DNA of 49,821 nucleotides, from NCBI GenBank assembly GCA_947372235.1, contig CANBSW010000011.1:1-49821 (forward strand), read 5' to 3'. Positions 24,643 through 27,252 of the stretch are shown one piece after another. The position numbers and the translations under genes are program-made. The notes beneath the pieces are model-generated. The model saw only the letters and a list, made by a program, of their open reading frames with translations. It had not been told where the DNA came from and did not search any database. This DNA comes from Chitinophagaceae bacterium (lineage in GTDB: Bacteria > Bacteroidota > Bacteroidia > Chitinophagales > Chitinophagaceae). Numbering within the stretch: the stretch's first letter is position 1; each line of letters starts with the position of its first letter.

Positions 24643-25263
24643 TTATGATATAAACAACTGTGGCAAATACTTCACAATCCACTCCGGAATAGCATTTTCT
24701 GCGATATGAAAAACCATCTTTTGTTTAATCCGCTGCCCAATATATAATGGAATTGTACCGGAAGTATCAAGCAGCGTAAGTTGATCAATAAGATGTAGAT
24801 TTTGATTTAACTTAAGTAGGTTACCAAAATAATTCTTTTCAATATCATACGGCTGAACATTATGCCCGCCTCTGATTGCTCTGTTAAATACCCTGTCGGA
24901 AGATAACTTGAGGGAGGTCAGACCAAGAAATATCATATCGATTCTATAACCTTCTTGTTTAAATTTTCGGATAAGATTCCAACTATCATCCTCAGAAAAA
25001 TGGCCTTCGTATGCAAAATGATCTTTGTTAAACAAAGCCGCAGTATACAAACTTTCAAATTCAGCAAACACATAATTATCTGCAAGGCGGCTTGCCTCCT
25101 TGTATGAGCCGGTCAGTTTTTTAAATTCCAGTTGCTTGGTCATTTTCAACTTATCACCATCAAAAAGGGGATATTTGTCTTTGATCACATCCGGCAAAAG
25201 CCCGGGCCCTGCAGTTGATTTACCTGCACCATTTGGACCTGTAATAATATAAAGGGTTGGCAT
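24643..25263 (-). CDS. Zeta-toxin-like P-loop kinase
   Basis: 206 aa. Walker A GPNGAGKST at residues 9-17, then FDGDKLKM and FAYEGHFSEDDSW and a Walker-B-like IDMIFLGLTS give the zeta-toxin kinase arrangement. Zeta toxins phosphorylate UDP-N-acetylglucosamine; other members of the fold act on different targets or are not toxins. The gene overlaps the small upstream gene by one base (TAATG), as in toxin-antitoxin pairs with the antitoxin first. The call as kinase fold is firm, the toxic role is inferred. Confidence 0.78.
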   Translation of the reverse strand: MPTLYIITGPNGAGKSTAGPGLLPDVIKDKYPLFDGDKLKMTKQLEFKKLTGSYKEASRLADNYVFAEFESLYTAALFNKDHFAYEGHFSEDDSWNLIRKFKQEGYRIDMIFLGLTSLKLSSDRVFNRAIRGGHNVQPYDIEKNYFGNLLKLNQNLHLIDQLTLLDTSGTIPLYIGQRIKQKMVFHIAENAIPEWIVKYLPQLFIS

Positions 25264-25523
25264 TAGAAAACTGCGGGCAACTGATGCTTACGACGAAGAT
25301 TATTAATTTCAATTGCATCTAATTCATCCTGAACAATAAAGTCGTTTTTTTCTCTGGAAACTGAAACAATAAAAATATCTCCATCAGGATATTCCATATA
25401 ATATTGCCCTTCCGGCAGATTGGCATCATACACCAGAAAAGGTTCGCCGCGTAACAGGGTTTGTTTTCTAACCTGCCCTATTGCCGCAATAGCTTTTTCC
25501 TCAAAACCTGCTACGCTGATCAT
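25263..25523 (-). CDS. Small partner of the zeta-like kinase, candidate antitoxin
   Basis: 86 aa, acidic-to-neutral, with strands such as PFLVYDANLPEGQYYMEYPD and DIFIVSVSREKND and a C-terminal helical tail LDAIEINNLRRKHQLP. It does not resemble the three-helix epsilon antitoxin. Position, size and one-base coupling to the kinase gene suggest an antitoxin or regulatory partner. I do not recognise the family by name. Confidence 0.68.
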   Translation of the reverse strand: MISVAGFEEKAIAAIGQVRKQTLLRGEPFLVYDANLPEGQYYMEYPDGDIFIVSVSREKNDFIVQDELDAIEINNLRRKHQLPAVF

Positions 25524-25717: not shown

Positions 25718-25927
25718 TTGACTCGTCCTGAAAATGCAAGGTGGTGTTCAAGCGACCCTACTTGTATTGATAGCCATGGTCAGGGACCAAATTCTTGCAA
25801 TCTAGCGGCTTGTCATAACTGTTCATTATTGCCAGAAACCTGTTGCGAGGAATCAAATATGTTACTTGACAGAGTGATGTTGATAGGAACTCTCGACACA
25901 TCTTCGATAGGCTATTTTAATTTGTAA
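25718..25927 (+). pseudogene. 5'-truncated remnant of a DUF1998/DrmB-type protein C-terminus
   Basis: The 69-aa frame begins at a TTG with no upstream coding, and reads RWCSSDPTCIDSHGQGP, LAACHNCSLLPETCCEES and NMLLDRVMLIG. This is the cysteine-rich zinc-binding end of DUF1998 proteins, found in DrmB of the DISARM defence system and in related MrfA-like helicases, where intact proteins are many hundreds of residues long. Only the last part survives, so this is a gene fossil left by deletion or by insertion of neighbouring DNA. Whether the source was DISARM or a stand-alone helicase cannot be decided from this piece. Confidence 0.72.
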
Positions 25928-26027: not shown

Positions 26028-27110
26028 TTAGCTTTTCAATACTCCCATCAACCGTACATTCAAATACAGTTTTTCTTTACCCGCCTGCTCACTTTTTAAA
26101 AACCCTTTTTGTTCCAGTTCCGCAAGGTAATTACCGGATGTTTTTAGGTTTCCTATACCGGCCTTTACCAGAAAAGAACGCTTTGTATACGGAAGCCTGA
26201 ACAGTACTTCCAACAGGTCTTTCGAATATACCTTTGGTGCTTTTTTTTGTATTTCCTTACCCATTGTGTCCATCAAAACATCAATCTCTGTTATTTGTTT
26301 TCTTGCCTGTAATGCGGTTTTTTCTGTCATACCCAACATAAAACAGATCCAGGTTTCCCAGTCCTGCTTTTCAGTAACGCCCCGTAAGTTTTTATAATAC
26401 TCGTTTTTATGCTGTATAATATAATTACTCAGGTACAATGCCGGTATAGGCAAAAGCCCTGTCATTTTCAGGTATAATAATAATATGATCCTTCCTGTTC
26501 TGCCATTGCCATCAAAAAATGGATGTATGGCTTCAAACTGGTAATGTATAATGGCCATTTTAATAAGTGGGTCAATATCATCGTCTGTATGAATAAAATC
26601 TTCCAGGTTTTTTAGTTTAGCCCTTATTACGGCTTCTCCTTCTGGCGGTGTATAAACAACTTTCCCTTTTAAGGTATTTCTCAGTTGTGTTCCGGGTGCA
26701 TTTCGTATACCTGAACCATTCTCTTTGATAATCCGCATTATGGCAATAAAAAGATTTGTGGTTAACAACGGCTTCTTTTCCAGTTGTTGTACCCCATACC
26801 ACAACGCATCTTTATAATGAATCACTTCTTTGGTAGAAGGATTATCAGTTTTTTGTTCACTGATACTGGCCCTGAACAATTCGTCTTCAGTAATAATAAT
26901 ATTTTCAATAGCTGAACTGGCCTGTGCTTCCAGTAAATGAATGGTATCTGTAAAAAGTGTTGGATTGGGTAATTTGGTAAGCGCCCCTTTTAATTCAGAC
27001 AATGCGCGGCTTGCAGCAATTGTTTTCTTTAATACAAAAGCTGTTTCAACTGTCATTTTAGGTGGCAAAAGGGGAAGATTATTATATGGTTTCTCTGGAC
27101 GAAATTGCAA
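26028..27110 (-). CDS. Fic family AMP-transferase with N-terminal inhibitory helix and C-terminal winged helix
   Basis: 360 aa. The Fic motif HPFFDGNGRTGR starts at His196 and is intact. An inhibitory motif of the [S/T]xxxE[G/N] type, SSAIEN at residues 65-70, lies before the core, so this is a class II Fic protein held inactive by its own helix. The C-terminal part (KDLLEVLFRLPYTKRSFL, SGNYLAELEQKGFL) looks like a winged helix-turn-helix. Such proteins add AMP to target hydroxyl groups. Two tandem palindromes just upstream suggest autoregulation through the C-terminal domain. The gene lies between 22-bp direct repeats next to a toxin-antitoxin pair. Confidence 0.9.
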   Translation of the reverse strand: MQFRPEKPYNNLPLLPPKMTVETAFVLKKTIAASRALSELKGALTKLPNPTLFTDTIHLLEAQASSAIENIIITEDELFRASISEQKTDNPSTKEVIHYKDALWYGVQQLEKKPLLTTNLFIAIMRIIKENGSGIRNAPGTQLRNTLKGKVVYTPPEGEAVIRAKLKNLEDFIHTDDDIDPLIKMAIIHYQFEAIHPFFDGNGRTGRIILLLYLKMTGLLPIPALYLSNYIIQHKNEYYKNLRGVTEKQDWETWICFMLGMTEKTALQARKQITEIDVLMDTMGKEIQKKAPKVYSKDLLEVLFRLPYTKRSFLVKAGIGNLKTSGNYLAELEQKGFLKSEQAGKEKLYLNVRLMGVLKS

Positions 27111-27140
27111 AACTGTTTATTTTTTATAAGGGTACAAAAC

Positions 27141-27163
27141 ACCCTCGTTAATAATACGAGGGT
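27141..27163. promoter_or_regulatory. Candidate operator 1 upstream of the Fic gene
   Basis: ACCCTCG and CGAGGGT form a perfect 7-bp inverted repeat around TTAATAATA, 31 bp upstream of the Fic ATG. A similar 27-base block starts exactly 40 bp further on at 27181. Confidence 0.55.
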
Positions 27164-27176
27164 AAATTACAACAAA

Positions 27177-27207
27177 TTTTACTCTCGTTCTATTTTCAAG
27201 AGTAAAA
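27177..27207. promoter_or_regulatory. Candidate operator 2 upstream of the Fic gene
   Basis: TTTTACTCT and AGAGTAAAA form a perfect 9-bp inverted repeat. Aligned with operator 1, both read AC[CT]CTCGTT at the left and G[AG]GTAAA at the right, with identical spacing, so this is a tandem duplicated site rather than chance pairing. Confidence 0.55.
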
Positions 27208-27252
27208 CTTACCCCTATCTAAAAAACAAAACCGCCCATCCATAAAGAACAG

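Follow-up and report, generated by a model that had tools for sequence, protein, structure and literature searches.

An operator array at the promoter of a SoFic-like Fic gene from a Chitinophagaceae bacterium points to autorepression by the winged helix of its product

We analysed a stretch of 49,821 nucleotides from a Chitinophagaceae bacterium (assembly GCA_947372235.1, contig CANBSW010000011.1; hereafter the window), which encodes on its reverse strand a SoFic-like Fic protein and carries, directly upstream of this gene, an array of six short half-sites. We put at about 85% the probability that the gene is under dedicated autorepression, the C-terminal winged helix of the Fic protein acting at the gene's own promoter. 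Since the protein ends in a winged helix, the sites recur upstream of orthologues and the operator sequence tracks the recognition helix, the data are best explained by binding of Fic to its own promoter. A sequence-only reading of this DNA had already proposed that Fic represses the promoter of its own gene; the computed evidence favours that proposal, in which binding and repression stand as predictions.

Results

A winged helix at the end of the Fic protein, suspected in the sequence-only reading, is borne out by an AlphaFold2 model, by a match to PF21248 and by comparison with solved structures. The model has a predicted local distance difference test score (pLDDT) of 86 overall and of about 90 in the winged-helix region, where helices at residues 297-303, 311-316 and 322-334 precede a two-strand wing (339-343/346-350). 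When the model was searched with Foldseek, the top matches in the PDB were the SoFic structures 3ZCN and 3EQX (template-modelling score 0.91), and it shows the SoFic fold including the winged-helix C-terminus.

Two blocks, ACCCTCGTTAATAATACGAGGGTAAAT at 27141 and ACTCTCGTTCTATTTTCAAGAGTAAAA at 27181, lie 40 base pairs (bp) apart, and the first is 31 bp from the TTG start codon at 27110, just as had been read from the letters. They had been taken for two inverted repeats; the pairing of the blocks is there, while their palindromy is no better than chance and the unit exceeds two palindromes. Placed in a 12-N5-12 frame, the blocks give 8 and 9 complementary pairs out of 12, and the same frame yields exactly 8 pairs at 187 positions of the window and at least 9 at 41. 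Palindromy, not rising over background in this AT-rich DNA, was therefore discarded as evidence, and matrices derived from orthologues were used instead. The window promoter by itself also gave a weak result in a de novo test of 8-mers, which 7 of 100 shuffles equalled. The array so defined comprises six half-sites between 27125 and 27219 (consensus TTTRCCCTCGTT; Table 1), alternating in orientation with a spacing of 13-17-23-17-13 and mirror-symmetric about the centre; the palindromes noticed earlier are half-sites 2-3 and 4-5, the middle four of the six.

In order to score the array we used a matrix built purely from sequences of other species, the window being excluded and the geometry of the six half-sites fixed. 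The Fic promoter scores 70.2, the runner-up among about 99,000 placements in the 49.8 kb scores -38, and the background over the window has a mean of -138 (standard deviation 23). No further clear operator was found elsewhere in the genome, where the pattern gave only matches with three mismatches, rarer than with a reversed-pattern control. A wider regulon was therefore ruled out, the operator being seen clearly at the Fic promoter alone, as in a dedicated loop.

The expectation that paired sites would also stand before orthologues with the same architecture held: among 175 homologues collected, the array precedes, with the same geometry, orthologues that are 58-77% identical. Promoters of orthologues whose recognition helix is of the GNxKTxGNYL type have TTTRCCCTCGTT at -109(-), -96(+), -79(-), -56(+), -39(-) and -26(+) from the start codon, and this geometry relative to the start codon is conserved across orthologues of several orders. 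With the geometry unchanged, 37 of 42 orthologue promoters score more than 45, a count that is partly circular because these are training sequences. Column information in these promoters is 0.96 bits in the half-sites, 0.67 in the linkers and 0.24 in the surroundings. The central gap of the orthologues reads TATtTTTR, which by its sequence we take to be the Bacteroidota -7 box (TAnnTTTG; PMC7366714).

Where a homologue has a different recognition helix, its half-sites differ too, though their spacing is similar: beyond the group to which the window belongs, the steps between sites on the same strand are mostly 40-42 bp (90 cases) or 30-32 bp (29 cases). When five half-site cores were set against eight helix groups, matches fell in the matching groups alone, with zero off the diagonal. 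The CCCTCG core was found in 20 of 46 members of the GNxKT group and CGACAT in the AKRQ (13/21) and AHRQ (11/11) groups; GGGTTA was found in 5 of 7 SRNT proteins, GACTTA in 4 of 6 SRST proteins and TACATGA in 5 of 6 SRITASK proteins. Paralogues within one genome carry differing arrays, each fitting its own helix (G478, G593, G659, G449). In a blind scan we then compared every 10-residue segment of the protein with operator similarity, correcting for overall identity. The association peaks at the recognition helix (starts 316-321, residues 316-330; r up to 0.40), stays at or below 0.20 elsewhere in the protein, compares with a permutation maximum of 0.12, and holds after dropping either of the two large groups.

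Proteins with RQ-type helices have the CGACAT core both in Bacteroidota and on alphaproteobacterial plasmids, so the same core is expected for E. coli Sofic, whose helix reads AKRQTAS. Four E. coli Sofic promoters indeed hold pairs of the CGACAT-N11-ATGTCG type, one of the four genes being frameshifted. On Salmonella plasmids, one SoFic gene (L093) sits among type IV secretion genes, and a frame-broken copy (L098) still has its upstream sites. Four SoFic-like homologues (L149, L142, L145 and L078) are without the canonical Fic catalytic motif, and the first three keep a significant upstream array; these may be regulators whose enzyme function is gone.

The window protein matches Fic_N, Fic and SoFic-like_C far over the gathering scores of Pfam and the SoFic profile of PADLOC at 1.8e-110. 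It is about 43% identical to the SoFic structures over a full-length alignment and also aligns full-length with a second 'protein adenylyltransferase' structure, 9VJC, the sequence of which starts as that of the E. coli 55989 Fic protein. With the NCBIfam SoFic equivalog NF046030 it scores 427.9 bits, under the curated cut-off of 550 bits, and we therefore call it SoFic-like and not SoFic proper. Its TTG start pairs in alignments with residue 1 of ATG-started orthologues. The protein fits both the catalytic pattern HxFx[DE]GNGRxxR and the N-terminal inhibitory pattern [ST]xxxE[GN], and because both motifs are kept the enzyme is probably competent and self-inhibited. Its assignment to Sofic anti-phage defence, that is, AMPylation-dependent abortive infection, would follow from homology only.

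Neither the window gene nor its close relatives were found to have a conserved small AS1-like partner downstream, and small downstream open reading frames (ORFs) did not recur past close relatives in the homologue loci. A 47-amino-acid ORF at 25758-25901, just as long as EcAS1, was rejected as an AS1-like antitoxin, having no relative in any fetched locus. Also in the window, a Zeta-toxin-like P-loop kinase is encoded at 24643-25523 (PF06414, 3.9e-6), preceded by an overlapping ORF of 86 amino acids without a family match; these two, adjoining the Fic gene, are a possible toxin-antitoxin pair.

Operator and gene are tightly bracketed by a 22-bp direct repeat which has two copies genome-wide, one mismatch apart. 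The repeat pair looks like an insertion scar and, as a lead only, operator and gene look like one mobile unit. Repeats flanking operator and gene with a score of at least 16 were found at 4 of 29 loci, compared with 0.16% of 609 same-sized control placements. Several relatives (L007, L012, L019, L037, L051, L090 and others) have flanking direct repeats, 22-113 bp long and of a different sequence at each locus, and that of one relative lies in a tRNA-like 3' end. These repeats resemble the insertion of restriction-modification genes in Helicobacter pylori with long target duplication (Nobusato et al. 2000, cited in PMC1643837). An empty insertion site was not found in relatives, in which the neighbour gene is too rare, and for this reason the mobile unit is kept as a lead.

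Table 1. Positions in the window of the Fic gene, its domains and motifs, the upstream array and the flanking repeats.
Feature	Coordinates	Strand	Remarks
SoFic-like Fic protein	26028..27110	-	360 amino acids, TTG start; Pfam Fic_N + Fic + SoFic-like_C
C-terminal winged helix, residues 297-350	26061..26222	-	AlphaFold2 and PF21248 (3.9e-22)
Recognition helix, residues 322-334 (segment GNLKTSGNYL, residues 320-329)	26109..26147	-	peak of operator-association scan, segment starts 316-321
Fic catalytic motif HPFFDGNGRTGR, residues 196-207	26490..26525	-	canonical
Class II inhibitory motif SSAIEN, residues 65-70 ([ST]xxxE[GN])	26901..26918	-	present in 166/169 homologues
Half-site 6 TGTACCCTTATA	27125..27136	-	7.6 bits, weak
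Half-site 5 AACACCCTCGTT	27138..27149	+	13.7 bits
Half-site 4 TTTACCCTCGTA	27155..27166	-	17.0 bits
Central gap and probable core promoter	27163..27177	-	orthologue consensus; window reads TAATTTAC
Half-site 3 TTTACTCTCGTT	27178..27189	+	16.2 bits
Half-site 2 TTTACTCTTGAA	27195..27206	-	10.9 bits
Half-site 1, degenerate CTTACCCCTATC	27208..27219	+	4.9 bits; position kept in orthologues
22-bp direct repeat copy GCGATTTGCATTGGATGGTAAA	25993..26014	+	14 bp past Fic stop codon
22-bp direct repeat copy GCGATTTGCATTGGATTGTAAA	27253..27274	+	33 bp past outermost half-site

Discussion

We propose that Fic, which is dimeric in its characterised relatives, would place its C-terminal winged helices on inverted pairs of TTTRCCCTCGTT, where the CCCTCG core would be read by the recognition helix and the T-tract by the wing. 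Inverted pairs of 29 bp, 40 bp apart, would flank the core promoter, with extra half-sites at both ends, and an array that presumably fills cooperatively would, once full, exclude RNA polymerase, because the pairs flank and overlap the core promoter. A small amount of protein would thus suffice for repression and a potentially lethal enzyme would stay scarce; if the protein were removed or occupied, the gene would be derepressed. The likely purpose of the loop would be to keep a toxic enzyme low and so to restrain a toxin used in phage defence. Wild-type EcSofic, the E. coli protein, is clonable only under tight repression and is dimeric in solution (PMC12249575). Since the position of the C-terminal domain differs between ATP-bound and apo Sofic (PMC12249575), a coupling of the nucleotide state to this domain is conceivable. 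The AMPylation state, suggested earlier as a switch, finds no support in the sequence, and the catalytic mutant H192A of CccR, a Fic repressor described below, still represses (PMC9755527).

Several observations weigh against autorepression. The two outermost half-sites are weak in the window (7.6 and 4.9 bits). The sequence TAATTTAC is one base short of the -7 spacing of the orthologues, and a perfect Bacteroidota -7 box, which the orthologues do have, was accordingly rejected for the window. About half of the homologues (87/169) are without a significant array in a crude k-mer test, and the association of helix and operator is not significant once both large groups are dropped (n=37). That an occupied array would repress the promoter, and not activate it, is suggested by its position alone. 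Finally, DNA binding by SoFic was undemonstrated as of 2023 (PMC10628234).

Among other explanations, we give next to no credence to the palindromes being products of chance, or working at the RNA level as hairpins or terminators of the 5' leader. The palindromy by itself is, as noted, unremarkable in the window, but the matrix score of the array is far beyond background, the half-site sequence shifts with the recognition helix, and half of the sites, located before the conserved -7 box, fall outside the transcript. It is also quite improbable that a separate host regulator binds the array and the winged helix serves otherwise, for example in keeping the enzyme actively shaped. A role besides DNA binding is indicated by the C-terminal domain of EcSofic, which touches the AMPylase domain and is required for toxicity (PMC12249575). 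However, the operator sequence follows the recognition helix of Fic and not the remaining protein, paralogues in one genome differ in their operators, the same helix goes with the same operator in E. coli, on alphaproteobacterial plasmids and in Bacteroidota, and the genome holds no further clear copy.

Somewhat less improbable, and still unlikely, is that binding of the array by Fic serves mainly to park the enzyme on DNA and keep it in check, or to detect DNA that is invading or degraded, repression being secondary. Six sites exceed the needs of simple repression, ATP binding is structurally coupled to the C-terminal domain in Sofic (PMC12249575), and CbFic2, another Fic protein with a winged helix, has an activity induced by DNA binding according to the title of PMC10628234. 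On the other hand, the core promoter lies at the middle of the array, whose distance from the start codon hardly varies, as for an operator, and repression and catalysis are separable in CccR. A bolder scheme, which we regard as a long shot, makes Sofic repressor, latch and effector at once: the toxin, which in healthy cells would stay on its operators, would be freed and also induced once the array is destroyed by phage takeover or by breakdown of the host chromosome, and operator and gene would spread as one cassette with a lineage-specific operator code.

Autorepression by the winged helix, which we favour over these alternatives, bears on a widespread single-gene phage-defence protein, for which the control of toxicity is an open question according to its investigators (PMC12249575). 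A dedicated array of operators, with a helix-to-site code that can be read, makes self-repression a concrete and testable answer, and would account for a winged helix being retained in a defence enzyme. The pairings of helix and half-site offer a supply of orthogonal repressor-operator pairs, and the operator predicted for E. coli Sofic concerns a protein that laboratories already use.

Domain order, class II inhibitory motif and winged helix are common to the window protein and to SoFic/Sofic (Shewanella oneidensis SO_4266, PDB 3EQX and 3ZCN; EcSofic). As in the window, the operator type in the E. coli Sofic promoters matches the helix, with CGACAT for AKRQTAS there and CCCTCG for GNLKTSGN here. 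The term 'DNA-binding' never occurs in the 2025 Sofic paper, and we found no report of Sofic operators or autoregulation in the open-access literature, subscription papers and preprints being outside our scope; recent SoFic entries in the PDB (9TB0, 9TC4, 9TCH and 9TCL) could stem from such work. CbFic2 from Coxiella burnetii (CBU_0822, PDB 8CIL) is a Fic enzyme with a DNA-binding C-terminal winged helix and shares the architecture of the window protein at about 19% identity; it binds random DNA, maybe nonspecifically according to its authors, and AMPylates histone H3 (PMC10628234).

CccR from Yersinia pseudotuberculosis (YPK_0951) combines, as the window protein does, a Fic domain with a C-terminal helix-turn-helix. 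It acts on an inverted repeat to repress its own promoter, and its regulatory and toxic activities are independent according to its authors (PMC9755527). It belongs to a distant subfamily (29% identity to SoFic at 45% coverage) and, unlike the window protein, is a secreted effector of a type VI secretion system and a back-to-back dimer. Its operator is a single inverted repeat, AGATAATCAT-N26-ATGATAATCT, whereas the SoFic-like family has arrays of 29-31-bp pairs; the window accordingly holds N5 pairs in an array of six half-sites and not one repeat with N26. Autorepression by a Fic protein with a helix-turn-helix is thus already established for CccR, a precedent from another Fic subfamily with another operator geometry, and the window protein has strong computed support as a putative autorepressor of the CccR type.
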